Source: Thiolapillus brandeum
GTDB lineage: Bacteria; Pseudomonadota; Gammaproteobacteria; Chromatiales; Chromatiaceae
Direction of reading: 5' to 3'
Assembly: GCF_000828615.1 (NCBI RefSeq)
Contig: NZ_AP012273.1
Coordinates: forward strand, 1,922,001-1,986,000
Length of the DNA: 64,000 nucleotides
The translations under genes were made by a program, and so were the position numbers. Below, piece by piece: positions 7,292 to 32,364 of the stretch. The notes beneath the pieces were generated by a model that was not told the origin of the DNA, did not search any database, and was given only the letters and a program-made list of their open reading frames with translations. Each line of letters begins with the position of its first letter. The first letter of the stretch is position 1.

Positions 7292-7307
7292 TGTCATCTG
7301 GATGACA
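7292..7307 (+). promoter_or_regulatory. Palindromic operator TGTCA-N6-TGACA (site 1)
   Basis: TGTCATCTGGATGACA, a perfect 5+5 palindrome with Crp-like 16-bp geometry. A -10-like TATGGT starts 37 bp after the first base of the site, which puts the site centre near -41.5. The next start codon is at 7377. Four other perfect copies and one near copy lie in the window. Confidence 0.75.
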
Positions 7308-7376
7308 GCGGGCAATCCGGCACTCTTGTATGGTTCCAAGCATCTTAAGAGCTTTTCAGCTTTCCGCGTGGATCAG

Positions 7377-7718
7377 ATGAAAAAATCCAATTGCTGCATT
7401 GCTATTTTCCCCGATCACGCCGGAGCGGTCGAAGCCATCGATGAGCTGAAAAAACACCATATGGACGACAATGTTATTTCGCTGGTAGGGAAAGATGTTC
7501 AATATGGAAAAGTGGGCGTCAACGGACTTTCATCATTGAATGAAGACCTTACCCGGCTGGGTGTTCAGGAAGCCACCCTGTATTGCTACCAATGCATGGT
7601 GCATAACGGTTCATTCCTCGTGATCGTCACCGGCAACCACGATCAGGTGGAAGCTGCCTGCGATCAACTGGAAAAGCATGCACAAGCAGACGTTGCTCTT
7701 CACTTCAATGCACCCTGA
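7377..7718 (+). CDS. Small stress-type protein, function unknown
   Basis: A 113-residue soluble protein starting MKKSNCCIAIFPDHAGAVEA. The pattern (short beta strand with FPDHAGAVEAIDELK, then a Gly-rich stretch and a second ferredoxin-like repeat near VIVTGNHDQVEAAC) resembles small general-stress domains of the YflT/DUF1269 kind, but I do not recognise it with certainty. An upstream in-frame extension of 63 residues crosses the operator at 7292 and is not protein-like, so the ATG at 7377 is preferred. The operator and a -10 at 7329 suggest control by the Crp/FNR-type regulator. Confidence 0.7.
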   Translation: MKKSNCCIAIFPDHAGAVEAIDELKKHHMDDNVISLVGKDVQYGKVGVNGLSSLNEDLTRLGVQEATLYCYQCMVHNGSFLVIVTGNHDQVEAACDQLEKHAQADVALHFNAP

Positions 7719-7904
7719 AGAATTACTCATGGGATAGGCATCCATCACCCTTCCCTTGAAATTCCCCGTCCAGGCGATGCATCCACATTTTGTACCTGAC
7801 AGCTGTGAAAAATGCTATTGCAGTTGGCTGGGTATTTCGACGGGTTTCCGGCCCCATCAGGCACAATTCTCCCCACCCAGGGTAGAATCAGATGTGCCCC
7901 TGGT

Positions 7905-7920
7905 TGTCACTCAAATGACA
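7905..7920 (+). promoter_or_regulatory. Palindromic operator TGTCA-N6-TGACA (site 2)
   Basis: TGTCACTCAAATGACA with both 5-base arms intact. CAGAAT, a 4/6 match to the -10 consensus, begins 37 bp from the site start. The next gene starts at 7998 and is followed by gpmA. Confidence 0.72.
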
Positions 7921-7997
7921 TACAACCCCTATTCAACAATCCAGAATAATCCTGACAGTATTCATACAGGTTATCGATTCACTACGGAGATATGATC

Positions 7998-8192
7998 ATG
8001 AGCAAAACCATAACCAAGACTTTCAAGTCCCCTGACGCACTCAGCAATGTCAAAGAAGATCTTGTTGCCACTGGCATCGAACAGGAACAGATTTTCATCG
8101 ACAAAGACAGGAATCAGGTCAAAGTCATCATCCCCAAGGAAGCAGAGCCTGAAATTCTGGAGATTCTGAGTCGCCATCAGCCACTGGACTAA
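7998..8192 (+). CDS. Small protein of about 64 residues, function unknown
   Basis: The product begins MSKTITKTFKSPDALSNVKE and looks like a small alpha/beta domain (DLVATGIEQEQIFIDKDRNQ, then VKVIIPKEAEPEILEIL). The ATG at 7998 is favoured over one at 7992 because GGAG ends eight bases before it. No family is recognised; the fold may be related to the small stress domains of the previous gene. It is probably the first gene of a unit with gpmA, 49 bp downstream, behind operator site 2. Confidence 0.7.
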   Translation: MSKTITKTFKSPDALSNVKEDLVATGIEQEQIFIDKDRNQVKVIIPKEAEPEILEILSRHQPLD

Positions 8193-8241
8193 TCCGTAAG
8201 CGCAGAGGCTGCCGCGCAGTCTTTGCGCTTTCTCCACCCCC

Positions 8242-8934
8242 ATGAATCAGAAAGGACAACTTGTTCTTGTGCGGCACGGCCAGTCTGTGTGGAACAAGCA
8301 GAACCGTTTCACGGGTTGGGTGGACGTATCTTTGAGCCAGGAAGGCATGGCTGAAGCCACCATGACAGGGAAATTGTTGCGCGAAATGCGTTTCGACCTG
8401 GCTTTCACCTCACTATTGCTACGCGCCCAGGACACACTCTACGAAATCCTGAAACAGAATCTTTACTGCGATCAGTATATGCGCATCCATGAAACCCGTA
8501 GCGAATGGTACGAGCACTTCACTTCAACGCAAGCGGACCTCATGGAATTGAAAATATATCTGTCCGAAAAACTGAATGAACGCTACTACGGCGATCTTCA
8601 GGGCAAGAACAAGGAAGCTGCACGGAAAGAGTTTGGCGATGAACGAGTGCATCTCTGGCGGCGCAGCTATGACATCCCGCCACCGGGTGGTGAGAGCCTT
8701 GAGATGACTGCCCTGCGGGTTATTCCCTATTACGACACACAGATCAAACCTTATCTGAAAAAAGGCGCTTCAGTGCTGGTCTCTGCCCATGGCAATTCCC
8801 TGCGCGCACTCATCATGCACCTGGAACGATTGACCCCAGACCAGATTCAGGCGTATGAATGGCCGACGGGATCCCCCCATGTCTATCATTTTGACAGCCA
8901 TGGTCGTCTGCAACACAAAAACGTGTTGTCATAA
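8242..8934 (+). CDS. gpmA: 2,3-bisphosphoglycerate-dependent phosphoglycerate mutase
   Basis: Interconverts 3- and 2-phosphoglycerate in glycolysis and gluconeogenesis. The 230-residue product has the histidine-phosphatase signature LVRHGQSVWN with the phospho-accepting His near residue 13, then NRFTGWVDVSL, NERYYGDLQGKNK and PPGGESL, typical of dPGM rather than of broad phosphatases. The second catalytic His is in SAHGNSLRALI. Residues around the middle (RSEWYEHFTSTQADLMELKI) are less canonical than E. coli GpmA. It lies in the operator-linked carbon-metabolism region. Confidence 0.87.
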   Translation: MNQKGQLVLVRHGQSVWNKQNRFTGWVDVSLSQEGMAEATMTGKLLREMRFDLAFTSLLLRAQDTLYEILKQNLYCDQYMRIHETRSEWYEHFTSTQADLMELKIYLSEKLNERYYGDLQGKNKEAARKEFGDERVHLWRRSYDIPPPGGESLEMTALRVIPYYDTQIKPYLKKGASVLVSAHGNSLRALIMHLERLTPDQIQAYEWPTGSPHVYHFDSHGRLQHKNVLS

Positions 8935-9166
8935 GCCCTGCCCTCTATCATTGATTGTTCCTGTCAGGCTATACTGCCTCTTCAGAAGGCCTGAGCATCA
9001 GGGAACTTTGTAACTTGTTCATGAATTCGTATCTTACGCCCGGACACGCCAACATCACCGTTGCGGATACTGCCGACGGCCTGCTATTGCCTGCACCCAT
9101 TCACAGCATCGGCACCAAAACCCGCAGCATTCAGAATCGCTCAAAGCTTCCCTGGCTACGGCAGTC

Positions 9167-9901
9167 ATGAAGAATAGCCTGCCTCTTTACAACACCTACC
9201 GCATGAGACTGTCAAAAACAGCGCTTTTTCAGGGGCTGTCTATGCAAACCCTGGATGACATGCTGTCTCATTTTCGCTTTGAATCCTGGAATAGAGGCTC
9301 TACCCATGACAGCAGCATCGCCTTGCGTCGTTTCTATGTCATTCTCGAAGGGCGCATGCAATTGACCCGCATTCACCCAGGTACGGGAAAGCAGATTACC
9401 ATCTCCATTCTCAGCGATGGCGATATGTATGACGTTCTGACTCTGCTGGATGGTCAGCAGCATGCCATCACCCCCAGCGCACTGGATGACCTCAAGCTAC
9501 TCTCTGCTCCCATCGATGAAGTGCGCGACTGGATCCGGGAACACCCGGACTTCAATAACAATTTTCTGCCTTATCTGGGAAGGCGGATTCGCTGCAGGGA
9601 GGCCCTGGCCACCGACCTTGGTCTGTATGATACTCACACCCGCTTGGCCCGGCTGATACTCCGGCACGTCAATCCACACCATTCCAGGCAAACAGACTCC
9701 GGCATTGACGTGCAACTGCTGCATGACCTTTCCAACGAAACCATCGGCCAAATGGTTGGAGCGGCCCGGCAGGTCATCAACAAACACCTTCAAGCCATGA
9801 AAAAAGACGGCATCCTGCATATTGAGAAGCGCCATCTCATCATCGATGATCTGAATCGCCTGCAACAGGAAGCAGAAGACCTGGAAAATCAGTTCCTGTA
9901 A
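9167..9901 (+). CDS. Crp/FNR-family transcription regulator
   Basis: A 244-residue protein with an N-terminal cyclic-nucleotide-binding-like beta barrel (about 20-125), a dimer helix (about 130-165) and a winged HTH (about 175-230). The recognition helix GAARQVINKHL aligns with Crp so that R201, Q202 and K206 replace Crp Arg180, Glu181 and Arg185. The only cysteine is C143, so there is no FNR-type Fe-S cluster. The cAMP phosphate-binding Arg-Ser pair of Crp is not recognisable. The ligand is unknown. The Glu-to-Gln change fits recognition of TGTCA rather than TGTGA half-sites, and such sites surround this gene. The ATG at 9167 overlaps the stop of a doubtful short frame; a start at the internal ATG (residue 13) is also possible. 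Confidence 0.88.
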   Translation: MKNSLPLYNTYRMRLSKTALFQGLSMQTLDDMLSHFRFESWNRGSTHDSSIALRRFYVILEGRMQLTRIHPGTGKQITISILSDGDMYDVLTLLDGQQHAITPSALDDLKLLSAPIDEVRDWIREHPDFNNNFLPYLGRRIRCREALATDLGLYDTHTRLARLILRHVNPHHSRQTDSGIDVQLLHDLSNETIGQMVGAARQVINKHLQAMKKDGILHIEKRHLIIDDLNRLQQEAEDLENQFL

Positions 9902-9950
9902 TGAAGCGGACACAGGAGAGCAACCACTTGCTCACGGGACGGAGCTGACA

Positions 9951-11330
9951 GTGCTTGATTTTGTCATATATCACCTGTTCCTTGCCTTGGGGGTGATGCT
10001 GACGTTATTTCTGATCACCCAGATCCTTAGGGATCGGCGTCCGCCAGCCGCCTCTCTGGCCTGGTTGCTGTTCATTGTCAGTCTTCCCTATATCGCCATC
10101 CCCCTCTATCTGACGATTGGTGTACGAAAACTGAAATTCACCGACAAATCCGCACTGTATGGCGCCCCCACCCACTCGGATCGGACATCCCCGGTGCCGG
10201 ATCTCGATCAGTTGCTGGATTCATACGGCGTACCTGAAGCTTCCGGGGGAAACCAAGTGGTATTCCACGCGGATGGAAACGAAGCCCGGCAGGCGCTCTG
10301 GCATACCATGGACTCGGCCCTCAAACAGCTGGACATCGCCATCTTCATACTGGCAAATGATACTCTTGGAAAACAGGTATGTGAAAAACTCAGGACCAAG
10401 GCCCAACAGGGAGTGCGTGTGCGCCTGCTGCTCGATGGCGTTGGCTCCTTTCTATTACCGCGCCACCAGGTGCGGAAACTGCAGGCCAGCGGGATCGAGG
10501 TCCTGTGGTTCATACCCGTGCTGCATCGCCCCTTCAAGGGACGCACCAACCTGCGCAATCATCGCAAATTGGTACTGGCCGACAGTCAACGTATCTGGAC
10601 AGGCGGCAGAAATCTGGCCCATGAGTATTTTGACTCTGCCGGAGAACAGGGCCAGCCCTGGCTGGATCTGAGCTTCCATATGCAGGGGGCAGGCATCATC
10701 CAGTATCAGGAGCTGTTTGAAGAAGACTGGAGATTCGCCGGAGGACAAACATCCGTGCCTGCCACCTTTACCGATCCCCTGCCGTCAGGCGAGTCCCGCA
10801 CCCGCCTGCTGCCATCCGGGCCTGATATGCCGGATGATCCCCTGCAGGCATTGCTCCTGGCGGCCTGTTTCGAGGCCCGGAATAAAATTATTGCTGTCAC
10901 ACCATACTTCATCCCTGATGACCCCATTATCGAAGGACTGTGCCTCGCCGCCAGGCGTGGCGTATCAGTAACCCTGATTCTGCCCGAAAAATCCAACCAT
11001 CTGCTCCCGGACATTGCCCGCAACCGCTATCTGCGGGAACTGACCGATTCGGGTGCCACGGTCGTATTCCTGCCAGGCATCATGAATCACGCCAAGGCAC
11101 TGGTCGTGGATCAGCGCCTTGCTGTGTCGGGCAGTGCCAACCTCGACCTGCGCAGTCTGTATCTCAACTTCGAAGCCATGACACTCTTCTACAGTCAGGA
11201 TGACATTCTTTGGCTGACCCGGTGGATGGAAAATCTCATCTCTCAGGGGTTTGAACACCATCCCGTTACGCCGGGACGCATGTGTCTGCTCATCGAGGGG
11301 GTTGTGGTGATGCTTTCCTTTCAACTTTGA
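9951..11330 (+). CDS. Cardiolipin synthase-type phospholipase D protein
   Basis: Probably condenses phosphatidylglycerol into cardiolipin at the inner membrane. The 459 residues begin with two membrane segments (about 4-22 and 32-52). Two HKD motifs follow: HRKLVLADSQRIWTGG in the first half and HAKALVVDQRLAVSGSANLD in the second. The GTG start at 9951 has GGAG eight bases before it. It lies 49 bp after the regulator gene and could be cotranscribed with it. Closest to the cls/clsA group; no symbol is given because the exact paralogue cannot be fixed. Confidence 0.88.
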   Translation: MLDFVIYHLFLALGVMLTLFLITQILRDRRPPAASLAWLLFIVSLPYIAIPLYLTIGVRKLKFTDKSALYGAPTHSDRTSPVPDLDQLLDSYGVPEASGGNQVVFHADGNEARQALWHTMDSALKQLDIAIFILANDTLGKQVCEKLRTKAQQGVRVRLLLDGVGSFLLPRHQVRKLQASGIEVLWFIPVLHRPFKGRTNLRNHRKLVLADSQRIWTGGRNLAHEYFDSAGEQGQPWLDLSFHMQGAGIIQYQELFEEDWRFAGGQTSVPATFTDPLPSGESRTRLLPSGPDMPDDPLQALLLAACFEARNKIIAVTPYFIPDDPIIEGLCLAARRGVSVTLILPEKSNHLLPDIARNRYLRELTDSGATVVFLPGIMNHAKALVVDQRLAVSGSANLDLRSLYLNFEAMTLFYSQDDILWLTRWMENLISQGFEHHPVTPGRMCLLIEGVVVMLSFQL

Positions 11331-11369
11331 CCGGATGCCGGAAACACCCTGAAATCCACTTCATAGGAA

Positions 11370-11385
11370 AGTCATCTGAAGGACA
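11370..11385 (+). promoter_or_regulatory. Degenerate operator, 14/16 match to site 5 (site 6)
   Basis: AGTCATCTGAAGGACA differs from TGTCATCTGAATGACA at two positions. CAAAAT, a 4/6 match to the -10 consensus, begins 37 bp from its first base, the same spacing as at the perfect sites. It would serve the 11536 gene, phosphoketolase and glucan phosphorylase. Confidence 0.5.
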
Positions 11386-11535
11386 CCCCGGCCTGTACTC
11401 CTGTGACAAAATAAAAAAATCATCCCGGCAACTGCTACCTGAGACCGGTATAAAATCTTGCTCTGAGTGTTGCCGGGAAAAACAACTTCTCATCAGTCCG
11501 GGAGTGCTTTACTCCTGTGCCTGGAACCCATCGCA

Positions 11536-11862
11536 ATGAAAGATCCGCAGAAAAACGGCTTCAAGGAACTGCTTGAACTGGCCAAGTTCCGCCCACCTCT
11601 CACTGTCGCTGTGGTGGATGCCGGAGAGACTCACGTCCTGCAAGGAATTTTTGAGGCTCGGGATCAGGGCCTGCTGAAACCCGTCCTGATCAGCAGACCT
11701 CAACGAATTCACAAAGCGGCACATGGATTGGGGCACTCCAGCGTGCAGGAGCAGTCCAGGCCTTCTGTATGGGTGATCCCGACCAATGAAGAAATAGTGA
11801 TTGCCCGGCACACCCACCAGCTCACACAGAAACTGTTCCTCGATCCGGACAGACCAACATGA
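11536..11862 (+). CDS. Truncated phosphotransacetylase-like protein
   Basis: 108 residues. Residues about 8-55 (ELLELAKFRPPLTVAVVDAG, then ETHVLQGIFEARDQGLLKPV) resemble the N-terminal beta-alpha unit of phosphate acetyl/butyryl transferases, which are about 300 residues or longer. After about residue 58 the likeness is lost and the frame ends. The catalytic C-terminal part is absent, so this is either a decayed gene or a small domain with a new role. It sits 34 bp upstream of phosphoketolase, whose product acetyl phosphate is the substrate of such an enzyme. Confidence 0.55.
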   Translation: MKDPQKNGFKELLELAKFRPPLTVAVVDAGETHVLQGIFEARDQGLLKPVLISRPQRIHKAAHGLGHSSVQEQSRPSVWVIPTNEEIVIARHTHQLTQKLFLDPDRPT

Positions 11863-11896
11863 ATACACAACCCAATTCTGAAGTATTGGAGCCATC

Positions 11897-14275
11897 ATGA
11901 ACAACGACCCGTCACAACCGCTTTCTCCGAATGAACTGCGGCTCATCCATGCCTGGTGGCGCGCTGCCAACTACCTTTCCGCCGGACAGATATTCCTCAT
12001 GGACAACCCCCTGCTGGAAGAGCCCTTGAGACCTGAGCAGATCAAGCCCCGCCGCCTTGGTCACTGGGGCACGACTCCGGGCCTCAACCTGCTCTACGCC
12101 CACACCAACCGGGTGATACGAAAATATGCTTTGAACGCCATCTTCATCACCGGCCCCGGACATGGTGGCCCTGCTCTGGTTGCCAGCACCTGGCTGGAAG
12201 GCAGCTACAGCGAACGCTACCCGGACATTTCCAGGGACAAGACCGGCATGAAGCGGCTGTTCCGGCAGTTCTCATTCCCTGGAGGGGTGCCCAGCCATTG
12301 CGCACCGGAAACCCCGGGCTCCATCAACGAAGGCGGAGAATTGGGTTACTCCCTTGCGCATGCTTTTGGCGCTGTTTTTGACAATCCGGACCTGCTGGCG
12401 CTTTGCGTGGTGGGTGACGGTGAAGCAGAAACCGGCCCTCTTGCCACGGCCTGGCATTCCAACAAGTTTATCAACCCTGCCAGAGACGGCGCAGTCCTGC
12501 CGGTATTGCACCTCAATGGTTACAAGATCGCCAATCCCACGGTACTGGCCCGCATCGATGATGACAGTCTCCAGCAACTGTTCAGAGGCTATGGTTACCG
12601 GCCCCTTATCGTCGCTGGAGACGATCCCGACAAAGTGCATCAGCAACTGGCGGCTGCCATGGACACGGCCGTTGAGGAGATTCACCATATACAACAAAAT
12701 GCCCGCAGAGGAGAGTATCCCGGCCCGGCCCAATGGCCCATGATCATTCTACGCACCCCCAAGGGATGGACCGGGCCCAGGGAAGTGGACGGACTCAGGG
12801 TGGAAGGTTTCTGGCGCGCCCACCAGGTACCCATCCCGGACGCCACGACTCCCGAACATCTGCGCATCCTGGAGGAATGGATGCGCAGCTATCATCCCGA
12901 AGAACTGTTCGACAGACAGGGACATTTGCAACCCGAGATTGCGGCGCTGGCGCCTGAAGGTGAGCGCCGCATGGGCGCCAATCCCCACGCCAATGGCGGG
13001 CTGTTGCTCAAACCCCTGCAACTGCCGGACTACCAGGATTACGCCCTCGATTTCCCGGCACCCGGCGCCACCCTGGGTGAAGCCACCCGGCGTTTTGGGG
13101 AATACTTGCGTGATGTCATGAAACTCAACCTCGATACCGCCAATTTCCGCGTGATGGGGCCAGACGAAACTGCATCCAATCGCCTTTCCGCCCTGTTCGA
13201 AATCACTGACCGGGCGTGGATGGCAAAAACCTTTGACTATGATGATCACCTGGCGCCTGATGGACGGGTAATGGAGATTCTCTCCGAACACACCTGCCAG
13301 GGTTGGCTGGAAGGCTACCTCCTGACGGGGCGGCACGGGTTCTTTTCATGCTATGAAGCCTTCATTCACATCGTCGATTCCATGTTCAACCAACATGCCA
13401 AATGGCTCAAGGTCTGCAATGAGATCCCCTGGCGGGCGCCCATCGCTTCCTTGAATATACTTCTCACTTCCCACGTATGGCGTCAGGACCACAACGGGTT
13501 TTCCCACCAGGATCCCGGCTTCATCGATCACGTAGTGAATAAGAAGGCAGACATCGTGCGCGTCTACCTGCCGCCTGACGCCAACTGCCTGCTGTACGTG
13601 GCCCATGAGTGCCTGAATTCACGGAATCTGGTCAATGTGATCGTGGCCGGCAAGCAGCCTGAGCCCCAGTGGCTGGACATGGAATCCGCCATCAAGCATT
13701 GCTCTGCCGGGATAGGCATCTGGGACTGGGCCAGCAACGATCAGAACGAAAAAGCCGATGTCATCATGGCCTGTTGTGGTGATGTACCCACCATCGAAAC
13801 ACTGGCTGCCGTGGATCTGCTGAGGGATATCGCTCCCGAGCTTCACATTCGCGTTATCAATGTCGTGGATTTGATGACCCTGCAGCCCCATGAAGAGCAC
13901 CCCCACGGATTGCACGATAATGAGTTCAATGCTCTGTTCAATACAGACACCCCCATAATCTTCGCATTTCATGGCTATCCCTGGCTGATTCACCGACTCA
14001 CCTATCGGCGCAATATCCACCATCACCTGCATGTCCGCGGCTACAAGGAAGAAGGCACGACCACTACGCCATTCGACATGGTGGTACTCAATGAACTGGA
14101 TCGATTCCATCTGGTAATGGACGTGGCCGATCGCGTACCCCTGTTACATGAGCGCACCGGGCACATACACCAGGCCATGCATGACAAACTGGTGGAGCAC
14201 CGGCAATACATCACAACCCATGGCGAAGACATGCCTGAAATCCGCAACTGGAAATGGAACGCAGCAGCCGGCTGA
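11897..14275 (+). CDS. xfp: Phosphoketolase (xylulose 5-phosphate / fructose 6-phosphate)
   Basis: TPP enzyme that cleaves Xu5P or F6P with phosphate into acetyl phosphate plus GAP or E4P. The 792 residues match the family length. Visible signatures are [47 protein letters not shown] and [19 protein letters not shown] near the N-terminus; [15 protein letters not shown] and the C-terminal TYRR[14 protein letters not shown] segment follow. Substrate preference cannot be read with confidence. Its stop overlaps the phosphorylase start (TGATG), linking glycogen breakdown to the phosphoketolase shunt. Confidence 0.95.
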
Positions 14276-17589: not shown

Positions 17590-17605
17590 TGTCATATGTA
17601 TGACA
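17590..17605 (+). promoter_or_regulatory. Palindromic operator TGTCA-N6-TGACA (site 3)
   Basis: TGTCATATGTATGACA, symmetric over all 16 bases except at the central pair region. TAAGAT, a -10-like hexamer, begins exactly 36 bp from the first base, the same hexamer and spacing as at site 5 (32349). The downstream operon is pdhABC-lpd; a 104-bp repeat lies between. Confidence 0.75.
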
Positions 17606-17645
17606 GCAAAACCATGAATGGGAACTAAGATATTGTGAACTGAGA

Positions 17646-17749
17646 AGTCTGTCGGATTTAATGCTGTTTGACTGCAAATCCCTGGATAGCGGAAATGCCG
17701 CTTATGCAGGAGCAATTATTGGTCAAACAGTCAAGCCCGACAGATTCCC
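17646..17749 (-). repeat. TGTCGGATTT-family repeat (copy B) in the pdh leader
   Basis: 104 bp with inverted ends AGTCTGTCGGATTTAA and TCAAGCCCGACAGATT. Read on the minus strand it aligns along its whole length with copy D (58053-58214) except for an internal deletion of about 55-60 bases. It lies between operator site 3 and the pdhA start. Without it the operator-to-ATG distance would be 63 bp, close to the 60-77 bp at the other sites. Confidence 0.75.
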
Positions 17750-17772
17750 AACGCAAATTCACGGGCTTTCTG

Positions 17773-18825
17773 ATGAAACGCGACACCCTACTTTCCATGC
17801 TGCATGACATGCTCCTTGCCCGCGCTTTTGAAGAGCGTGCCGCACAGGAATATACACGAGGCAATATCGCGGGCTTCCTGCACCTGTATCCCGGAGAAGA
17901 AGCCGTCGCCGTAGGCGTGCTTCATGGGGCAGAACCCAACGATTACATTGTCAGCACTTACCGGGAACATGTGCATGCCCTGGTTCGTGGCGTACCTGCA
18001 GAAAAGGTCATGGCCGAGTTGTTTGGAAAACGTGACGGATGCAGCGGCGGCATGGGGGGGTCCATGCACTTGTTCGACCAGGAACGGCGCTTCATGGGCG
18101 GCTATGGCATCGTTGGGGAAACCTACCCCATTGCCATCGGCATTGGTTACAGCATTGCCATGCAGGAACTGCCTGAGGCGGTCATCTGTTTCTTTGGCGA
18201 TGGCGCCGTCAATCAGGGCACCTTTCACGAATCACTCAACATGGCAGCCTTGTGGAAACTGCCCGTATTGTTTGTATGTGAGAACAACCGCTACCAGATC
18301 GGTACGGAGATTCATCGTCATTCAGCAATGACTGAAGTGTACAAACGGGCCTGCGGCTACCGTATTCCCAGTGAGAAAGTGAATGGCATGGACGTCCTTG
18401 CGGTACATCAGGCCACCCGGTCAGCACTGCAGCGCATACGCGAAGGAACCGGCCCGCAATTTCTGGAGGTGGAAACCTACCGCTTCCGCGGTCATTCCAT
18501 GTCCGATCCGGGAAGTTACCGCCCCAACGTGGAGGTACAGGCTTTCAAGGATGAAGATCCCGTTACTGTAGTTCTCGAAGAAAGCATTCCGGATTTTCCC
18601 ACCGAAAGCCAACTCGAAGCTCTGGGCAGAGACAACATTGTTCATCTCACCGGCCACATGCGTCAACAGGGTTATCTGGAAATGGAAGATGTCACGCGCA
18701 TGAAAGGAGAAATCTCGAAGCTTGTGGACAAGGCCGTCGATTTTGCCCTCAATAGCCCGGAGCCGGACATGCACGACGCCTGGCGGGCATTGTACTGCAA
18801 TCGTGGTCAGGAGGTACTGATCTGA
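17773..18825 (+). CDS. pdhA: Pyruvate dehydrogenase E1 component, alpha subunit
   Basis: TPP-binding half of the alpha2beta2 E1 that decarboxylates pyruvate and acetylates lipoyl-E2. Signatures: RAFEERAAQEYTRGNIAGFL, HLYPGEEAVAVG, VSTYREHVHALVRG, GCSGGMGGSMHLF, and the TPP motif GDGAVNQGTFHESLN ending in CENN. The motif set is like the cyanobacterial/plastid E1 alpha. The ATG at 17773 gives 350 residues; the open frame extends upstream through repeat B, where a TTG with AGGAG before it is an alternative start. It overlaps pdhB (TGATG). A branched-chain or acetoin E1 is less likely. Confidence 0.9.
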   Translation: MKRDTLLSMLHDMLLARAFEERAAQEYTRGNIAGFLHLYPGEEAVAVGVLHGAEPNDYIVSTYREHVHALVRGVPAEKVMAELFGKRDGCSGGMGGSMHLFDQERRFMGGYGIVGETYPIAIGIGYSIAMQELPEAVICFFGDGAVNQGTFHESLNMAALWKLPVLFVCENNRYQIGTEIHRHSAMTEVYKRACGYRIPSEKVNGMDVLAVHQATRSALQRIREGTGPQFLEVETYRFRGHSMSDPGSYRPNVEVQAFKDEDPVTVVLEESIPDFPTESQLEALGRDNIVHLTGHMRQQGYLEMEDVTRMKGEISKLVDKAVDFALNSPEPDMHDAWRALYCNRGQEVLI

Positions 18826-19817
18826 TGAGCGAAGAAACCCCGGTATGGAAAGCGCTCAACCTGGCCATGGATGCCGAAATGTCCAGCGATGACAGCGTCT
18901 TCACCCTGGGTGAAGATGTCGGCCTGTATGGCGGCAGTTACCGTGTGACCCAGGACCTGTATGCCCGCTATGGTGAATGGCGGGTTCGCGACACCCCCAT
19001 TTCTGAAGGCAGTTTTACCGGGCTGGCTGTGGGCGCAGCCATGGCGGGCTTGCGCCCGGTGGTTGAGATCATGACCGTCAACTTCGCCCTGCTGGCCCTG
19101 GATGCCATTATCAACATGGCGGCAAAAATACCCTTCATGTCCGGCGGACAATTTCCCATGCCCCTGGTGGTGCGCATGCCCGGTGGCGTTGCCAAACAGC
19201 TGGCCGCCCAGCACTCACAGCGTCTGGAGCATACTCTGATGAACGCAGCGGGCCTGCGTATCGCCGTACCTGCCACTCCCCAGGATGCCTGGTGGCAACT
19301 GCGTCAGGCCATCCGCAGCAATGAACCTATAGTACTCCTGGAGCATGAGCTGCTGTATTTCAGCAAAGGCCGATTGGATACCGACCTGCCACCCCCTCCC
19401 ATGCACCGCGCTACGGTACGCCGGCCGGGTAAGGATCTGACTATCATAAGCTACTCTCATATGGCCAACCTGGCCTTAAAAGCGGCGCAACGCCTGTCCT
19501 CTGAAGGTATGGACATTGAAGTGATCGACCTCCGCAGCCTGCGTCCCATCGACTGGGATTGCTGCGTCAATTCGGTACGGAAAACCCATCATCTGCTGGT
19601 AGTGGAAGAGGACTGCGGTTTTGCCGGAGCAGGCGCCGAAATTGTTGCCACCCTGGCGGAGCGCTGCTTTCCCGATCTTGATGCACCTGCCAGGCGCCTT
19701 GCCGGGCTGGATATGCCCACACCCTACAATGGCACTTTGGAAACAGCCAGTATTCCCACCACTGCTGCCATCATGGACACCGTCAGGCAAATGCTGGTAC
19801 CGGGAGAAATCTCATGA
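18825..19817 (+). CDS. pdhB: Pyruvate dehydrogenase E1 component, beta subunit
   Basis: 330-residue partner of PdhA. Typical beta-subunit segments are LGEDVGLYGGSYRVTQDLYA, DTPISEGSFTGLAVGAAMAG, RPVVEIMTVNFALLALD, HSQRLEHTLMNAAGLRIAVP and the C-terminal EEDCGFAGAGAEI. TPP is bound at the alpha/beta interface. It overlaps pdhC by ATGA, so the four genes form one tightly coupled operon. Two-subunit E1 is unusual for gammaproteobacteria, which mostly use the single-chain AceE. Confidence 0.93.
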   Translation: MSEETPVWKALNLAMDAEMSSDDSVFTLGEDVGLYGGSYRVTQDLYARYGEWRVRDTPISEGSFTGLAVGAAMAGLRPVVEIMTVNFALLALDAIINMAAKIPFMSGGQFPMPLVVRMPGGVAKQLAAQHSQRLEHTLMNAAGLRIAVPATPQDAWWQLRQAIRSNEPIVLLEHELLYFSKGRLDTDLPPPPMHRATVRRPGKDLTIISYSHMANLALKAAQRLSSEGMDIEVIDLRSLRPIDWDCCVNSVRKTHHLLVVEEDCGFAGAGAEIVATLAERCFPDLDAPARRLAGLDMPTPYNGTLETASIPTTAAIMDTVRQMLVPGEIS

Positions 19818-20995
19818 AAAAACAACCTGTCACCATGCCTGTGCTGTCCGATACCATGGAGAGTGGCCACTTGCTCAAGTGGCTGAAACAACCGGGCGAC
19901 AAGGTGAAAAAGGGCGACATTCTGGCTGAAGTGGAATCAGACAAGGCCATCATGGACGTAGAAGCATTCTCTGACGGATATGTGGCAGGCCCGTTGGCAA
20001 CACCGGGTAGTGACATTCCCACGGGTACTGTCATCGGGTATATCAGTGATTCAGCTGAGAACGTCGGGGACGATGCCGCGCTTGAATCCCCATCACCCGC
20101 CAGCGGGACAGGAACTGCATCGCTACCGGAACAAAGCCCGCACAATCCGGAAACCCCGCCAACACAAGTATCTGAAGCCCCAGCCCCACTGGCCACCCAC
20201 CCCATCAACCATGATTCCCGAGATATCAAGGCTTCCCCCTATGCCAGAGGGCTGGCACGGGAACTGGGCATAGACCTTGCGACCGTGCCCCCTGGTCCAC
20301 AAGGCATTGTACAGGCACCGCAGGTGCTTGCTGCCGCCATGCAGGGACCGCAGCCAAAGCTTGATGCCGGCCCCGAGTGGCGTTTCAAGATGCTTTCGAG
20401 TATGCGGCGGGCCATTGCCGACAATATGTCCGCCACTGTACGCACCCCCACCTTCCGGGTCAGCAGTGATCTGCGCATGGATCTGTTGCACCAGGCCGCA
20501 AAAGACCGGAAATATTCATTGACACTGCTTCTTGCCAGGGCATTGGCACTGACGGTAACCGAGCACCCGCTCTTCAACGCAGTATATACACCCGCTGCCC
20601 TGGCATTGCGCCAACAGGTGAACGTGGGCATTGCTGCGGATGTTCCCGGAGGCCTGCTGACACCGGTATTGCAAAACGCTGCAGAACGCCCCCTTTCGGA
20701 GCTGGCAGAAGATTGGCGCATACTCAAGAACAAACTCAGGCAACAACGTCTGGTGCCCGGGGACTACGAAGGCGCCACCATCTATCTGTCCAACCTGGGC
20801 ATGTTCAAAACAGTCAGCAGCTTTGAAGCCATAGTCCCCCTGGGAGCTGCAGCCATCTTGTCTGTCGCTGCCGAAAGAAACAGCTTGGCCAGCTTTACCC
20901 TTAGCTGCGACCATCGGGTAGTTTACGGCGCAGACGCCGCCCGCTTCCTTGGCACTTTTGGAGCCATGCTGGAAAACCCTGGAGACTGGTCATGA
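19814..20995 (+). CDS. pdhC: Dihydrolipoamide acetyltransferase E2 of pyruvate dehydrogenase
   Basis: 393 residues: one N-terminal lipoyl domain with the lipoylated Lys in EVESDKAIMDVEAF (about residue 43), a Pro/Ala/Ser-rich linker (about 80-135), a peripheral subunit-binding domain (about 137-175, SPYARGLARELGIDLATVPP) and the catalytic domain (about 190-393). The active-site motif reads DHRVVYGAD rather than DHRVxDG; a Tyr there is known from cyanobacterial/plastid E2. Catalytic transfer of acetyl from lipoamide to CoA is expected. It overlaps lpd by ATGA. Confidence 0.92.
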   Translation: MKKQPVTMPVLSDTMESGHLLKWLKQPGDKVKKGDILAEVESDKAIMDVEAFSDGYVAGPLATPGSDIPTGTVIGYISDSAENVGDDAALESPSPASGTGTASLPEQSPHNPETPPTQVSEAPAPLATHPINHDSRDIKASPYARGLARELGIDLATVPPGPQGIVQAPQVLAAAMQGPQPKLDAGPEWRFKMLSSMRRAIADNMSATVRTPTFRVSSDLRMDLLHQAAKDRKYSLTLLLARALALTVTEHPLFNAVYTPAALALRQQVNVGIAADVPGGLLTPVLQNAAERPLSELAEDWRILKNKLRQQRLVPGDYEGATIYLSNLGMFKTVSSFEAIVPLGAAAILSVAAERNSLASFTLSCDHRVVYGADAARFLGTFGAMLENPGDWS

Positions 20996-22392
20996 TACTG
21001 GATAAATACGACTACCTTGTCATTGGCGGTGGTCCTGGCGGCACCCCTGTTGCGTCCGCCCTTGCCGAAGCCGGAAAACAGGTATTATTGGTTGAGAAAG
21101 GCGCTGGCCTGGGTGGCACCTGCCTGTTCGAAGGTTGTATCCCGTCAAAAATCTTCAGGGAATCAGCACGTCGCCTCAGAGAGCTTCAGGAGTCCGCTGA
21201 ATTTGGCCTATGCCTGCCCACGAGAGATGTTCATATCGACTGGAGCGCAATCCAGGAGAGGAAACAGTCCATCCTGCATCTGCGCAGCATCGGTGCCATG
21301 CAGCGGATACGACAAAATCCCTCTCTGGACGTCACTCTCGGCAGCGCCATGTTTCTGGACAGTACCCATGCGCATATTATCCCGGTTTCAGATAGCCCGG
21401 TAGATATCGAGTTCAGGCAGGCCATCATCGCCACGGGCTCCAGACCTTTCCGTCCCCCGATACGGGGAGTGGATAACCGTCAGGTACTGGACAGTGGGCA
21501 AATCCTCGATATCAACCATATTCCCAAAAGGCTGGCCATCATCGGCGGTGGCCCCATAGGGGTGGAGCTCGGGCAGGTATTCAACACTTTTGGCAGTGAA
21601 GTGACGATCTATGAAGCAGGCCCCCACATACTGTCCCATGTGGATCAGGACCTGGTGGAACATCTGCAACAACAGATGGCCGCTGACGGCATTGATATTG
21701 TTGAGAACTGTCATATCAAGTGTATCTCCCACACCGGCAGTGGAGTCTTTGTGGAATACCAGGTGGATGACAATCCATCGGTCCATCGTTTCGCCGATAC
21801 CGTGCTGTTGGTCACTGGACGGCAACCCAATACAGAAAGCCTGGGGTTGGAAAACACCGCCATCGAACAAACGCCTCATGGCATCCAGGTCAATGGCCAA
21901 TTGCAAACGAAGGAAAGCAATATCTTCGCCCTGGGCGATGTCATTGGACAACCCATGTTTGCCCATTGGGCCACCGCCCAGGCTCTGTCGCTGGCAAAAA
22001 ACCTCATGGGTCATCCCACTCCGTTTCCCGATGCCGATTACAACACTATGGTCATTTTCAGCGAGCCGGAACTGGCGATGGCGGGACTTACGGAAACACA
22101 GGCCCAATCACGTGACATCGACTATAAGGTTGCCCGCTATGATTACAAGCAGGATGCCCGGGCCCAGATCGCCAACCAGGCCAGGGGACAGCTCAAGATC
22201 CTGTATACCAGTGGTGGGCATCGTATCATTGGCATCCATATACTGATGGAGGGTGCCGGAGATCTTATGGGTGAAGCGGCGCTCGCAGTAGCACAAGGTA
22301 TTACACTGGAAGAACTGGCGAACGCCATACACCCCCACCCCACCCTTACAGAATCCTTTGCGATAGCGGCACGGACTGCCTTACGGGGATGA
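20992..22392 (+). CDS. lpd: Dihydrolipoamide dehydrogenase E3
   Basis: FAD enzyme reoxidising dihydrolipoamide with NAD+. 466 residues: FAD motif VIGGGPGGTPVASALAEAG, redox disulfide C44/C49 in GGTCLFEGCIPSK, NAD motif AIIGGGPIGVELGQVFNTFG, ALGDVIG, and the C-terminal HPHPTLTE carrying the catalytic His-Glu pair. It is the last gene of the pdh operon. The mid-region is somewhat divergent from E. coli Lpd, as expected for an E3 dedicated to this complex. Confidence 0.93.
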   Translation: MILDKYDYLVIGGGPGGTPVASALAEAGKQVLLVEKGAGLGGTCLFEGCIPSKIFRESARRLRELQESAEFGLCLPTRDVHIDWSAIQERKQSILHLRSIGAMQRIRQNPSLDVTLGSAMFLDSTHAHIIPVSDSPVDIEFRQAIIATGSRPFRPPIRGVDNRQVLDSGQILDINHIPKRLAIIGGGPIGVELGQVFNTFGSEVTIYEAGPHILSHVDQDLVEHLQQQMAADGIDIVENCHIKCISHTGSGVFVEYQVDDNPSVHRFADTVLLVTGRQPNTESLGLENTAIEQTPHGIQVNGQLQTKESNIFALGDVIGQPMFAHWATAQALSLAKNLMGHPTPFPDADYNTMVIFSEPELAMAGLTETQAQSRDIDYKVARYDYKQDARAQIANQARGQLKILYTSGGHRIIGIHILMEGAGDLMGEAALAVAQGITLEELANAIHPHPTLTESFAIAARTALRG

Positions 22393-23155: not shown

Positions 23156-23728
23156 TCATACAGCAGCATGGCGCTGAGTCCATCCAATGTACACCAGTAC
23201 AACGCCATCAAAAAACAGACTGATAGCGACATACAGGCCAACAAGAAACATGGAGGTCGCAGGCCAGCCAATCAAAAACAGCATGGCCAGCAACAGGGAC
23301 AGAACACCATTGAACATCATCCATCCCCAGCCCGGTGCGGGACGCAGGGATGACGCAAAGGAAAAACTGCCGAATGCGTCCAGCAACAGATAAACGGCCA
23401 ACAGCAAACCTACAGCAGCAATGCCACTGAGAGGATAGAACAGCATAAATCCACCCGTAACAAGGAGCAAAACCGGCTTCAGCCAGTCGGCCCAGTCTTT
23501 GCGGCTATATTTGAACGAATGGGACAGCCAGAATACTCCGCCTACCAGGAACAGGCTGGCGATAAAGATACTGGTTTCCAGAGACATCAGTTCTGGAAGT
23601 ACCATACCCACACTGCCGAGCAGTATCAGCAGAAAACCAACAACCATGGAATAACGCCCAAAACGCTTGTTCAGCTGCTCGGCTGTTACCACCGTTTCTC
23701 CACCCAAAGCATTCGATGTTTTTTGCAT
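23156..23728 (-). CDS. HdeD-family membrane protein
   Basis: 190 residues with six hydrophobic segments after a 25-residue polar N-terminus (MQKTSNALGGETVVTAEQLN). The spacing and Gly-rich short loops (LLILLGSVGMVLPELMSLET; GVLSLLLAMLFLIGWPATSM) are characteristic of the HdeD / DUF308 family, tied to acid and stress resistance in enterobacteria. GGAG precedes the ATG. It is divergent from the TauE-like gene with operator site 4 between them. Confidence 0.85.
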   Translation of the reverse strand: MQKTSNALGGETVVTAEQLNKRFGRYSMVVGFLLILLGSVGMVLPELMSLETSIFIASLFLVGGVFWLSHSFKYSRKDWADWLKPVLLLVTGGFMLFYPLSGIAAVGLLLAVYLLLDAFGSFSFASSLRPAPGWGWMMFNGVLSLLLAMLFLIGWPATSMFLVGLYVAISLFFDGVVLVYIGWTQRHAAV

Positions 23729-23815: not shown

Positions 23816-23831
23816 TGTCACATGAATGACA
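23816..23831. promoter_or_regulatory. Palindromic operator TGTCA-N6-TGACA (site 4)
   Basis: TGTCACATGAATGACA, both arms intact, in the 162-bp divergent region: 59 bp before the TauE-like start and 87 bp before hdeD. No convincing -10 is found at 36-38 bp on either side, so which gene it serves, if either, is open. Confidence 0.65.
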
Positions 23832-23890
23832 AGCTCCGGGGAAACAATCAACATTGCATTTTCAGCTCGATACCTTGATGATTCCGTTCC

Positions 23891-24685: not shown

Positions 24686-24709
24686 AATGGAGAGGAACGA
24701 GTAGTACCT

Positions 24710-25144: not shown

Positions 25145-25149
25145 TAAAA

Positions 25150-25184: not shown

Positions 25185-25208
25185 CAATCACTTAAGTGAC
25201 TAAGTGTT

Positions 25209-25285
<77 letters not shown>

Positions 25286-25298
25286 ACTGACGGAGCAC

Positions 25299-25326
25299 AT
25301 TGTACTCAGGTTGGGCTTTTTGGCAA
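25299..25326 (-). promoter_or_regulatory. Promoter of tRNA-fMet
   Basis: On the minus strand, TTGCCA and TACAAT are 16 bp apart, with the -10 ending 13 bp before the tRNA 5' end. The 211 bp between the tRNA and 25497 hold nothing else recognised. Confidence 0.65.
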
Positions 25327-25496
25327 GCATTATCTTCGTGGTATTTTCCCTTTTCTTACATGGGTTTTCCGGGGCCAGGGGACTGGTGTTTTCTCTCAGG
25401 CAATGTGGAGTTCATCCGGTACCATTGTTGGAGAGCGGGGTACATGGGAACCCTCTTGGAGAGGATGTGTGTATTGATTGATAGGCTGGCGAGATG

Positions 25497-26801: not shown

Positions 26802-26839
26802 TGGCTATATCTTTTGCTGTTTGGTTGAGTCTGCCATTC

Positions 26840-29590: not shown

Positions 29591-29683
29591 GCTGGTTTTT
29601 CCTGTTGTTGGTAGGTATTTGATTTCTATTCAGCAGCCTGTTTCTCTACTTCCAACACATGCCGGGTAGTGCTGAGCAGGGTA

Positions 29684-30709
29684 TCAGGCATCGCTGTTTT
29701 CCATGGATGGGTCATATTTACCTTGACGGGCAAGGCTGTTGAGGCGTGCCCGCTTGAGCAATGCCTGCTGCGCCTTCTCCCGGTTTTCCGCTTTGCCCAA
29801 CCAGGCATGCAGAGCGGGTTGCTGCAATGCTCTGCCATAAGAGATGCTCAATTGCCAGGGGGCGTTGCCCTTGAGCTGATTGATGGCGTTGAGGTTGGCG
29901 GTCGCTTCTTCCGGCCCTTGTCCCCCGGAGAGAAAGTTGATACTGGGAACCGCAGCTGGCACGGTACGTTTCAGAATGCGCAGGGTGGCCTCCGCTACTT
30001 CCTCGGGATCGGCGCGCCGGCAGTCTTTGCCCGGCAGTACCATATTGGGTTTGAGGATCATGTGTTCAAGGCTGACGCCATGCAGATGCAGAGCATGAAA
30101 TACGGAATGCAATACATGTTCGGTAACGCTGGCGCAGCGATCGATGTCATGATCACCGTCCATGAGCACTTCAGGCTCGACGATGGGGACTACGCCTTTT
30201 TCCTGACAGACAGCGGCATAGCGTGCCAGCATTTCGGCATTGGCATGCCGTCCCATCCGGGTCGGGTTGTGCCGGGAGATGGGATAGACTTCGCGCCATT
30301 TGGCAAATCGCGCTCCCTGTTGTTTGTAGTGCTCCAGGCGTTCACCCAGGCCATCCAGACCATAGGTGATCAAGTCTCCCGGCGCGCCGGGCAGAGGGCC
30401 TTTGCCTTTGTCCACCTTTACCCCGGGCACGATCTTCTGTGACCAGGCCACTTTGGGCAGTGGGGTCCGGCTGTCGTCCTGTTGTCCCAGGGTCTCCTCG
30501 AACAGGATAACGCCAGAGATATACTTGCCAAGATCCGGCGTGTCGAGCAGCAGTGCCCGGTAAGCGCGCCGGTTCTCTTCGCTCGCCTCCACATCGATGG
30601 CCGCAAAACGTTTTGTGATGGTTGGCAGACTCTCATCGGCGGCGAGTATGCCGCGGTGATCGTCTACCATATCGGAGATCGTTTGTTGTAATTCACTATT
30701 CGTGCTCAT
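29684..30709 (-). CDS. Fructose-bisphosphate aldolase, class I
   Basis: 341 residues of the Schiff-base aldolase type. Visible are DDHRGILAADESLPTITKRF, FEETLGQQDDS, VPIVEPEVLMDGDHDI, LEHMILKPNMVLPGKDC (Schiff-base Lys in LKPNMV) and NFLSGGQGPEEATANLNAIN. The C-terminus YDPSMENSDA lacks the final Tyr seen in animal enzymes. It cleaves F1,6P2 in glycolysis or joins triose phosphates. The N-terminus and length are like the class I group found in plants and some proteobacteria, not archaeal-type FbaB. It follows the RNase gene by 86 bp. Confidence 0.94.
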   Translation of the reverse strand: MSTNSELQQTISDMVDDHRGILAADESLPTITKRFAAIDVEASEENRRAYRALLLDTPDLGKYISGVILFEETLGQQDDSRTPLPKVAWSQKIVPGVKVDKGKGPLPGAPGDLITYGLDGLGERLEHYKQQGARFAKWREVYPISRHNPTRMGRHANAEMLARYAAVCQEKGVVPIVEPEVLMDGDHDIDRCASVTEHVLHSVFHALHLHGVSLEHMILKPNMVLPGKDCRRADPEEVAEATLRILKRTVPAAVPSINFLSGGQGPEEATANLNAINQLKGNAPWQLSISYGRALQQPALHAWLGKAENREKAQQALLKRARLNSLARQGKYDPSMENSDA

Positions 30710-30795
30710 GATGTACTCCTGAATGTTGCCTATATTCTCTTATCTATCCATTGCCGGTTTGGGATCCGCCAATCGCCTGGCGCTTCCTGAGTTTC

Positions 30796-32199
30796 CTATT
30801 GCAGATCAAAGCTGTCTCCCAATTCGGGCATCACAACCTTTGTGTGGCTCAGCAGTCGGGAGAATGCCTGCATGCTTTCCTCCTCACCATGAACCAGGTA
30901 GGTGGTAGCCGGATTGCCGGTTTTCTTGTGCCAGGCCAGTAGCTCCGCCTGATCCGCGTGTGCGGAAAATCCACCTATGGTGTAGATATCCGCATTCACA
31001 GGATATTCCTCACCAAAAATCCTAACCTTGTCGGCACCATCGATAATACGCCGGGCCAGGGTGCCTTTGGCAGCATACCCAACAAACACGATACTGTTCT
31101 TTTTATCCCAGATATTGTGTTTCAAATGGTGACGAACACGCCCGCCGGTGCACATGCCGGAACCGGCCATGATAATTGCCCCCCCATCAATGTTGTTGAT
31201 GGCCATGGATTCTGCCGTCTCCCGGGTGAAATGCAGGCCGGGGAGATTGAAGGGATCATTCCCGTCCCTGCTGAGCTGGAGTGTTTCAGTGTCATAGCAC
31301 TCGGGATGGCGCTTGAATATCTCCGTGGCTGAAATAGCCATCGGGGAGTCCAGGAACACATTGATATAGTGGTGGATCTTTCCCTTCTCAAGGCCTTCTC
31401 GCAGGTAATAGAGTATTTCCTGGGCACGTTCCAGGGCAAAAGTGGGTATGACGACCTTGCCGCCTCGGCCAACAGTAGTGTTGACCGCATCGTAGAGTTC
31501 CTGGATAGAAGGCTCCAACTGTTTGTGCAGGCGGTCGCCATAGGTGGTTTCCATGACTACCGTATCGACTTTCGGGGGTGTTTCCGGTGGGCGCAGGATT
31601 GGCCGGTTGCCAATGTTTCCCAGGTCGCCGGAAAAAAGAATCCGGTGACTTTTCCCACCTTCCTCGAGTTCCAGAAGTATGCTTGCCGATCCAAGAATGT
31701 GGCCAGCATCCAGGAATGTGGCACGGATGCCCGGTGCAATCTCCAGGGGTTGGTCGTAAGAAGCATGGCGCCCCACATAGTCCAGACTGTTAAGGGCGTC
31801 CAGGGTAGTGTACAGGGGCTCGATATCCGCATGGGACTTGCCGGTATGCCGCTTGGCTTTGCGGGACTGGTAGCGGGCTTCTTCTTCCTGAAGGCCCGCT
31901 GAATCCAGCATCACCAGCCTTGCCAGTTCAAGGGAGGCGGGCGTGGTAATGATTTCTCCCCTGAAACCGCGCTTCACGAGCAGGGGAATACGTCCGCAGT
32001 GATCCAGGTGAGCATGGGTGAGGAGCAGATAGTCGATTGATTCCGGGTCGAATCCAAAAGGCGCGGCATTCTCTTCTTTGAGTTCCCTGCCTCCCTGGTA
32101 CATACCGCAATCGATGAGGATGCTTTTGCCTGCACATTCGATCAAGTGGCAGGATCCGGTAACACCTTGATCGGCCCCATGAAAAGAAATTTTCATCAT
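30796..32199 (-). CDS. Beta-CASP metallo-beta-lactamase RNase-like protein
   Basis: 467 residues. Metal ligands are seen in LTHAHLDHCGRIP, DAGHILGSAS and FSGDLGNIGN. The beta-CASP signatures follow: METTYGD, IPTFALERAQE, SGMCTGGRVRHHL, GGFSAHADQAEL and the C-terminal YLVHGEEESM. This is the CPSF73/YsgF-type group that processes RNA with two zinc ions; substrates here are unknown. It is the first gene of the leftward unit (RNase, aldolase, H+-ATPase, DUF4010) and is divergent from the Usp gene across operator site 5. Confidence 0.9.
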   Translation of the reverse strand: MMKISFHGADQGVTGSCHLIECAGKSILIDCGMYQGGRELKEENAAPFGFDPESIDYLLLTHAHLDHCGRIPLLVKRGFRGEIITTPASLELARLVMLDSAGLQEEEARYQSRKAKRHTGKSHADIEPLYTTLDALNSLDYVGRHASYDQPLEIAPGIRATFLDAGHILGSASILLELEEGGKSHRILFSGDLGNIGNRPILRPPETPPKVDTVVMETTYGDRLHKQLEPSIQELYDAVNTTVGRGGKVVIPTFALERAQEILYYLREGLEKGKIHHYINVFLDSPMAISATEIFKRHPECYDTETLQLSRDGNDPFNLPGLHFTRETAESMAINNIDGGAIIMAGSGMCTGGRVRHHLKHNIWDKKNSIVFVGYAAKGTLARRIIDGADKVRIFGEEYPVNADIYTIGGFSAHADQAELLAWHKKTGNPATTYLVHGEEESMQAFSRLLSHTKVVMPELGDSFDLQ

Positions 32200-32348
32200 G
32201 ACTGTCCTCTGGTTGGCTCACAGAGATGAACTCTGAATGGGCTGTTGGGCAACTATCCGGTATAGGAAATAATGAGGGCCATACCTCATGTTTCCAATCC
32301 CTATCCGGTGATGTTGCCAAAGTATAGGTTATTCAGATGAAAGCTCAT

Positions 32349-32364
32349 GTCATCTGAATGACAG
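32349..32364. promoter_or_regulatory. Palindromic operator TGTCA-N6-TGACA (site 5), divergent
   Basis: TGTCATCTGAATGACA. On the plus strand TAAGAT begins 36 bp from the first base; on the minus strand TATACT (5/6 match to the -10 consensus) begins 38 bp from the other end, at 32326. One dimer could therefore activate both the Usp gene and the RNase-aldolase-ATPase operon. Confidence 0.75.

Follow-up and report, generated by a model that had tools for sequence, protein, structure and literature searches.

What is the reason for the presence of six closely similar palindromes of the form TGTCA-N6-TGACA within 25 kb of the genome of Thiolapillus brandeum, and which protein might bind them? We addressed this question in a window of 64,000 nucleotides (contig NZ_AP012273.1, positions 1,922,001 to 1,986,000; G000:C1:1922001-1986000 in our numbering, where G stands for genomes, C for contigs and L for loci) of a genome of 3,153,637 bases. 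The palindromes are very probably operators of a Crp/Fnr-family dimer encoded among them at 9167-9901 (P0001), which would act as a class II activator of energy and stress genes. We regard P0001 as the probable cognate regulator because the sites are clustered, its gene lies inside the cluster, gene and sites co-occur across genomes, the distance to the -10 hexamer is fixed and the operator varies with residue 202 of the regulator; these features were computed directly from the genomes.

In the mechanism that we propose, a dimer of P0001 would recognise the consensus CTGTCAYYYRRRTGACAG through the helix that starts with R201-Q202, be centred roughly 41.5 bp upstream of the transcription start, where it would take the place of the -35 contact, and activate in the manner of class II Crp/Fnr proteins. 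Both binding and activation by P0001 are predictions. The predicted targets are phosphoketolase, alpha-glucan phosphorylase, pyruvate dehydrogenase, aldolase, a cation ATPase, a universal stress protein, and DUF308 and TauE-type membrane proteins, and the signal may be a shortage of energy or of oxygen. Crp/Fnr regulons are a known kind of system, to which this one belongs; its operator was not found in the literature in the forms searched, and none of the papers screened on title, opening of the abstract and frequency of terms describes this regulon. PMC10100741, consulted on residue 181, gave nothing useful. For an uncharacterised Crp/Fnr subfamily of the Gammaproteobacteria these results provide a tentative operator, the geometry of its promoters and a list of targets.

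Clustered palindromic sites

The sites found by the motif scan, with their -10-like hexamers, and the regulator gene are located as follows.

7292-7307, operator TGTCATCTGGATGACA; TATGGT at 7329-7334, plus strand
7905-7920, operator TGTCACTCAAATGACA; CAGAAT at 7942-7947, plus strand; counterparts in G004 and G014
9167-9901, plus strand, Crp/Fnr-family regulator P0001, helix GAARQVINKHLQAM; PF13545 and PF00027 over cut-off
11370-11385, degenerate operator AGTCATCTGAAGGACA before phosphoketolase; CAAAAT at 11407-11412
17590-17605, operator TGTCATATGTATGACA; TAAGAT at 17626-17631, plus strand; sites before pyruvate dehydrogenase also in G004, G009 and G014
23816-23831, operator TGTCACATGAATGACA, between divergent DUF308 and TauE genes; poor -10
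32348-32363, operator TGTCATCTGAATGACA, with divergent promoters; TAAGAT at 32384-32389 (plus strand) and TATACT at 32321-32326 (minus strand)

The original prediction of five perfect copies and one copy with 14 of 16 positions matching (at 11370) was borne out, except that the last perfect copy begins at 32348 rather than 32349. Of all pentamer palindromes with spacers of 0-12, TGTCA-N6 was the sole one to reach five copies in the window; six families had at least four. A genome-wide scan, suggested with the original prediction, found seven perfect copies (one for the reversed pattern), of which five fall inside these 25 kb. The two copies outside the window violate the condition of Y at position 6 and R at position 11, and all five genomic copies of the stricter pattern TGTCAYNNNNRTGACA (TGTCAY-N4-RTGACA) lie inside the 25 kb. 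Counting of degenerate matches in the window was uninformative: matches with up to two mismatches stayed at chance level (30 observed against 26 expected), and the signal of the window therefore resides in the perfect copies. By eye the sequence flanking the core is not common to the window sites.

Enrichment in intergenic DNA was seen with the perfect sites of the genus loci, 33 of 37 of which lie outside open reading frames (ORFs) of at least 150 amino acids (their first 45 nucleotides not being counted as inside), although such ORFs make up 84.5% of the 331,864 bases. Alignment gives the consensus stated above. Three of the four exceptions (window 7292, G004 5163 and G005 6017) resemble over-long ORF calls when compared with relatives. 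Site 7292 falls within a mechanically called ORF, 7188-7718; its homologues in G005, G006 and G009 begin after their sites and the corresponding ATG of the window is at 7377, so that this site, too, is most probably intergenic. The claim that the sites stand in intergenic DNA before carbon and stress genes thus held overall, with the reservation that the first gene behind two of the sites codes for a small protein without known function.

The regulator P0001

P0001 belongs to the Crp/Fnr superfamily: it combines a cyclic-nucleotide-binding fold (PF00027, 31.8 bits, cut-off 27.5) with a Crp-type helix-turn-helix (PF13545, 45.8 bits, cut-off 27). Its closest solved structures are the CRP/FNR chains 4byy (E 2e-23) and 3d0s (7e-22); CooA structures match at E 2e-11 to 2e-7. 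In the recognition helix, R201-Q202 aligns with the R-E of 4byy, at the positions of CRP R180-E181. The genome holds 14 matches to the Crp helix-turn-helix, 11 of them over the cut-off, and none of the other ten reads R-Q.

By its sequence P0001 is neither CRP nor FNR proper. It scores 31.3 bits against the CRP equivalog (cut-off 266) and 23.4 bits against that of FNR (cut-off 228). Glu72 and Arg82 of CRP are cAMP contacts; in the alignment with 4byy P0001 has Val and His at these positions, which argues against cAMP as the effector. It has one cysteine, C143, and hence no four-cysteine iron-sulfur site. Both cAMP and an FNR-type iron-sulfur cluster are therefore unlikely effectors. Histidine 99 was considered as a conserved ligand and ruled out, since it is variable across the regulator family. 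In a contig scan the nearest, and sole, named relative of P0001 was a regulator from a Sedimenticola metagenome-assembled genome, 89% identical. Plasmid relatives amount to 16 records at E <=1e-10; the best among the 10 listed, on a Sulfuricurvum plasmid, is 36% identical and reads R-K.

Promoter geometry

A -10-like hexamer at a fixed distance had been proposed for five of the six sites, and we observed it at an offset of 36-37 from the first base of the site: TATGGT for 7292, CAGAAT for 7905, TAAGAT for 17590 and CAAAAT for 11370, while 32348 has one on either side (TAAGAT forward, TATACT reverse). The sixth site, 23816, lacks a good one. The same distance recurs in the genus, where for 37 sites 32 of the 43 gene-directed orientations have TAnnnT at 36-37 (27 at offset 37 and 5 at 36) compared to 4 of 31 opposite ones (2 and 2). 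The corresponding binomial p = 6e-40 against the background rate is overstated, because many sites are orthologous and the directions were not assigned blind. This count left out the degenerate site 11370 and a match in contig C108 of G010 within a long ORF. Directions were assigned by the downstream gene, except for two sites without a called ORF, placed by promoter resemblance (G014C138:3709 and G010C90:34843), and two assigned despite an overlapping called ORF (window 7292 and G005C113:6017).

Twenty-eight sites from other genera gave TAnnnT at offset 37 in 13 and at 38 in 6 of 30 gene-directed orientations; among 26 orientations without a called gene it occurred once at 36, five times at 37 and once at 38. 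At the offsets fixed beforehand, 36-37, this makes 13/30 against 6/26, and at 36-38 it makes 19/30 against 7/26; offsets 37-38 had been examined first (19/30 against 6/26). Loci L119 and L129-L136, fetched for containing sites, enter this count and stand outside the locus test described below. A predicted site centre near -41.5 with the -10 at a fixed distance was thus found computationally in the genus and in other genera, in line with the class II spacing of the original prediction, and the fixed distance is the geometry of a class II Crp/Fnr activator.

The geometry also bears on the alternative that P0001 binds the sites and mainly represses, or merely competes with another activator. Crp/Fnr proteins are able to activate or repress, and some of the sites lie between divergent genes, with one side possibly devoid of a good -10. 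We consider this alternative unlikely, given that the fixed 36-37 bp spacing is that of class II activation, and retain P0001 as a putative activator.

Sites follow the regulator gene

Our sample of the genus comprised 15 genomes, the present one included. Close orthologs of P0001 were detected in five of them (G000, G004, G009, G010 and G014), which hold 5, 5, 9, 5 and 5 extended sites, respectively; one of the five in G010 lies inside a 588-amino-acid ORF and is probably there by chance. Of the ten genomes without a detected ortholog, eight have no site, G005 has 3 and G006 has 5. Gene order is shuffled among the genomes, and the sites stay with the pyruvate dehydrogenase, universal stress protein, TauE/DUF308, metallo-beta-lactamase/aldolase and 113-amino-acid genes and with the phosphoketolase operon. 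Conservation in relatives, another suggested check, was therefore seen as a recurrence of sites before homologous genes despite the rearranged order. In G020, of the same family and without a close ortholog, five dispersed matches to the extended motif were noted, against one for the backwards control; a similar site may be in use by another protein in that genome.

A profile built from eight regulators was then run on 369 genomes of the class, of which 25 (the present one included) matched at E <1e-57; two fragments in G097 aside, the matches that follow have E values of about 1e-29. At the position of CRP residue 181, which is 202 in P0001, the 42 rows of the tree (44 minus the duplicate G156_L128 and the fragment G211_L146_8828m) have Q in 20, V in 18, P in 3 and K in 1. 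The Q rows form one side of a branch with a value of 97 in the approximate likelihood ratio test (SH-aLRT), and V requires two changes. A sample of 398 genomes of the phylum added one further family-bearing genome, G748, and the family of G305 yielded G778, which has an R-Q regulator.

The pattern TGTCAY-N4-RTGACA, fixed beforehand in the genus, was counted in 48 genomes outside it: 34 sites in 9 R-Q genomes (backwards control 3), 13 in 9 V genomes, 2 in 6 genomes of other V or P clades, and 15 in 24 genomes without a family member. R-Q genomes differ from those without a member (p = 0.0002), which were chosen for the next-best profile scores and not at random, and from V genomes (p = 0.03). 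In the neighbourhood of the regulator genes, intergenic sites were present in 9 of 10 R-Q loci (17 in total, with 1 genic), and the eleventh, L127 of G186, has none; TGTCA sites in 10 V loci amount to 0 intergenic and 1 genic. In G748 and in G778, whose R-Q regulators were identified later, a site lies no more than 300 bp from the regulator. From position 15818 onwards L127 also contains CTGCC-N5-GGCAG in 55 copies that begin with a period of 60 bp, probably an array of clustered regularly interspaced short palindromic repeats.

A possible second operator with valine regulators

The loci of the main V clade share a different motif, TG[CT][AT]A-N6-T[AT][AG]CA, with 18 intergenic copies (in 8 of 10 loci) and 4 genic ones, against no intergenic copy in the R-Q loci; having been discovered in those same V loci, it is not independent there. 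Counted in whole genomes, its form TGTAACNNNNGTWGCA (TGTAAC-N4-GTWGCA) occurs 47 times in 9 V genomes (backwards control 9), twice in 9 R-Q genomes, three times in 6 genomes of other V or P clades and 11 times in 24 genomes without a member (V against none, p = 2e-6, the discovery loci contributing part of the counts). In the order of G244, another three genomes that have V regulators hold 1, 5 and 3 V-type sites; one of them, G784, also has an R-Q member. Seven genomes of this order without a family member hold 1, 1, 0, 0, 0, 2 and 0. On the R-Q side the five genus genomes hold 0, 0, 0, 2 and 1, G778 none and G748 two; G397 and G042 hold none. The -10 spacing is weaker at V sites (8 of 22 at 37-38). 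No palindrome motif emerged in the surroundings of the remaining V clades (L147-L151) or of the P clade (L152 and L153; also L071), and neither motif occurs between genes in the neighbour loci of these clades.

Behind the V sites are, among others, homologues of YfdX-like, DUF308, cation ATPase, amino-acid permease, LPD, pyruvate dehydrogenase, aldolase/universal stress protein and phosphoenolpyruvate synthase genes. These families also stand behind R-Q sites, some only at 25-35% identity. The two operators differ mainly in the fourth base of the half-site, plus the third on one side. We are inclined to think, on the strength of these comparisons, that a single Crp/Fnr subfamily uses two operator codes, Gln at CRP position 181 going with TGTCA and Val with TGTAA and TGCWA half-sites, and that a stress and energy network kept its members as regulator and operators switched together. 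If true, evolution would here have put the recognition code of Crp/Fnr proteins to the test, changing a single residue of the helix together with, in the main, the fourth base of the half-site.

Tandem pairs of related genes are frequent among V-type regulators (L137, L138, L139, L146 and L143); in L143 and L146 one gene of the pair is broken. A recurring element of some 100 bp, whose paired arms read TTCAG-N7-CTGAA, is present in two V-type genomes that share a genus (8 arms in L139 and 4 in L144).

Genes of the cluster

The genes around the sites are listed below.

7377-7718, plus, small 113-amino-acid protein, first gene behind site 7292; no Pfam match
7998-8192, plus, 64-amino-acid ORF of unknown function behind site 7905; homologous sequence in G004
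8242-8934, plus, 2,3-bisphosphoglycerate-dependent phosphoglycerate mutase; PF00300, TIGR01258 over cut-off
9951-11330, plus, cardiolipin-synthase-like PLD protein; PF13091; bac_cardiolipin 251.9 bits, under the cut-off of 290
11897-14275, plus, phosphoketolase; PF09364, PF09363, PF03894
14254-16776, plus, alpha-glucan phosphorylase; TIGR02094 over cut-off
17668-22392, plus, pyruvate dehydrogenase operon E1alpha-E1beta-E2-E3; the first gene may begin slightly downstream
23156-23728, minus, DUF308 membrane protein, presumably HdeD-like; PF03729
23891-24685, plus, TauE/SafE-family transporter; PF01925
25497-26801, minus, DUF4010 membrane protein; PF13194
26840-29590, minus, P-type cation (Ca-type) ATPase; PF00122, PF00690
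29684-30709, minus, class I fructose-bisphosphate aldolase; PF00274
30796-32199, minus, metallo-beta-lactamase/beta-CASP protein; PF10996, PF07521
32434-33297, plus, SpoIIAA-like and universal stress protein; PF00582, PF11964

Genes of central carbon metabolism and of stress responses thus follow the window sites; besides phosphoketolase, alpha-glucan phosphorylase and pyruvate dehydrogenase they include those for phosphoglycerate mutase, class I aldolase, universal stress protein and cation ATPase. Relatives add phosphoenolpyruvate synthase and Pta/AckA within islands, and Hsp70, ClpB, YfdX and FtsH at or near sites; such a set would fit a response to energy or oxygen limitation. Sites of the 7292 type precede homologous 113-amino-acid genes in G005, G006 and G009, and counterparts in G004, G014 and G010 were matched by resemblance of the promoter region. 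The counterpart of 11370 in G004, AGTCATCTAGACGACA, is likewise a 14/16 copy and has no TAnnnT at offsets 36-38; perfect sites precede the phosphoketolase operons of G010 and G009. The divergent arrangement of DUF308, site and TauE around 23816 recurs in G009, G006 and G014, the divergent pair around 32348 in G004, and the cation ATPase is preceded by its own operator in G009 and G195.

The gap between the cardiolipin-synthase-like gene and phosphoketolase (11331-11896) is without pta and ackA, which are found there in G004 (L063:8547-10760), and the degenerate site is kept in front. Genes for tRNA-Val and tRNA-Arg flank the cluster and one for tRNA-Met lies inside it (6834-6910, 25209-25285 and 34596-34672); the cluster may be an island inserted at tRNA genes.

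Weighing the explanations

Several observations weigh against a local regulon of P0001. Site 23816 has a poor -10 only, and the site counts are not fully independent or blind, given orthologous sites and directions set with the sequences already known. The R-Q regulator of G186 is accompanied by no site genome-wide (its contig begins beside the gene), and the R-Q member of G784, one of two family members there, has no site in its contig of 3.7 kb. The V-type genomes G110, G236 and G339 carry 6, 2 and 3 TGTCAY matches. Copies with up to one mismatch number 68 genome-wide compared to 34 for the backwards pattern, about twofold over a rough control; because of this excess weaker sites elsewhere in the genome may be real, and the regulon may not be only local. 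Finally, G005 and G006 (98% complete) carry sites without a detected ortholog. These sites are on short contigs, ahead of the same kinds of target genes, and a missed regulator is possible. As to G110, G236 and G339, they belong to one genus, and their matches are dispersed (against a mean of 0.6 in genomes without the family), with spacers that by eye are unlike those of R-Q sites.

The sites of G005 and G006 also speak for a different Crp/Fnr protein as the one that binds, with P0001 incidental, and the 11 helix-turn-helix genes over the cut-off provide candidates. We hold this to be improbable: P0001 alone among them reads R-Q, the sites follow the P0001-type gene across genera, and the operator varies with residue 202. 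Still less probable is a CooA-type carbon monoxide regulon, which the TGTC start of the half-site and the R-Q helix would suggest. P0001 is nearer to 4byy than to the CooA structures, no carbon monoxide dehydrogenase family match was obtained among the island proteins scanned, and the CooA consensus reported in the excerpt of PMC545781, TGTCGGCNNGCCGACA, differs: of the 74 half-sites on both strands of 37 perfect sites, one has G at position 6, position 5 being A by construction of the search. It is hardly credible that the palindromes arose by chance or belong to a mobile repeat without regulatory role, for against the chance-level number of two-mismatch matches in the window stand the clustering, co-occurrence, spacing, repetition in other genera and unshared flanks. 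A Crp/Fnr regulon with class II spacing, read by P0001, remains the best explanation of the locus, as the original prediction had proposed for a local regulon, with support from the gene inside the cluster, the co-occurrence of gene and sites and the -10 distance kept in relatives.

Comparison with known systems

P0001 shares its family and the class II spacing with CRP and with its best structure matches, the chains 4byy and 3d0s, which we take to be of the GlxR/Rv3676 type. Proteins of this kind have the half-site TGTGA and an R-E helix, unlike the R-Q of P0001, which also departs from them at the positions of Glu72 and Arg82. FNR, Anr and FixK are again of the same family and class II geometry, and similar genes are often under the control of such low-oxygen regulators; their half-site, TTGAT, is different, and so is P0001 with its single cysteine.

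The system in the consulted part of PMC8290217 includes YfdX, HdeD, FtsH and cardiolipin synthase, gene types that here or in relatives are found at or near sites or in island operons. This likeness is one of gene types and not of synteny, and the regulators named there are a Mer-like regulator gene and Cpx rather than Crp/Fnr. The motif of the Crp-family protein MrpC of Myxococcus, TGTYN8RAC according to the excerpt of PMC4320627, resembles the TGTC-N8-GACA of the sites described here; the comparison is of motifs rather than protein kinship, and MrpC has hundreds of developmental targets and a degenerate motif.

CooA comes close in its operator and helix. The excerpt of PMC545781 describes its operator as a 16-bp palindrome that starts with TGTC and ends with GACA, as do the sites described here, and R-Q opens the recognition helix in both proteins (GSSRQ in 1ft9). 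The targets are other ones, and the P0001 protein is only distantly similar to CooA.

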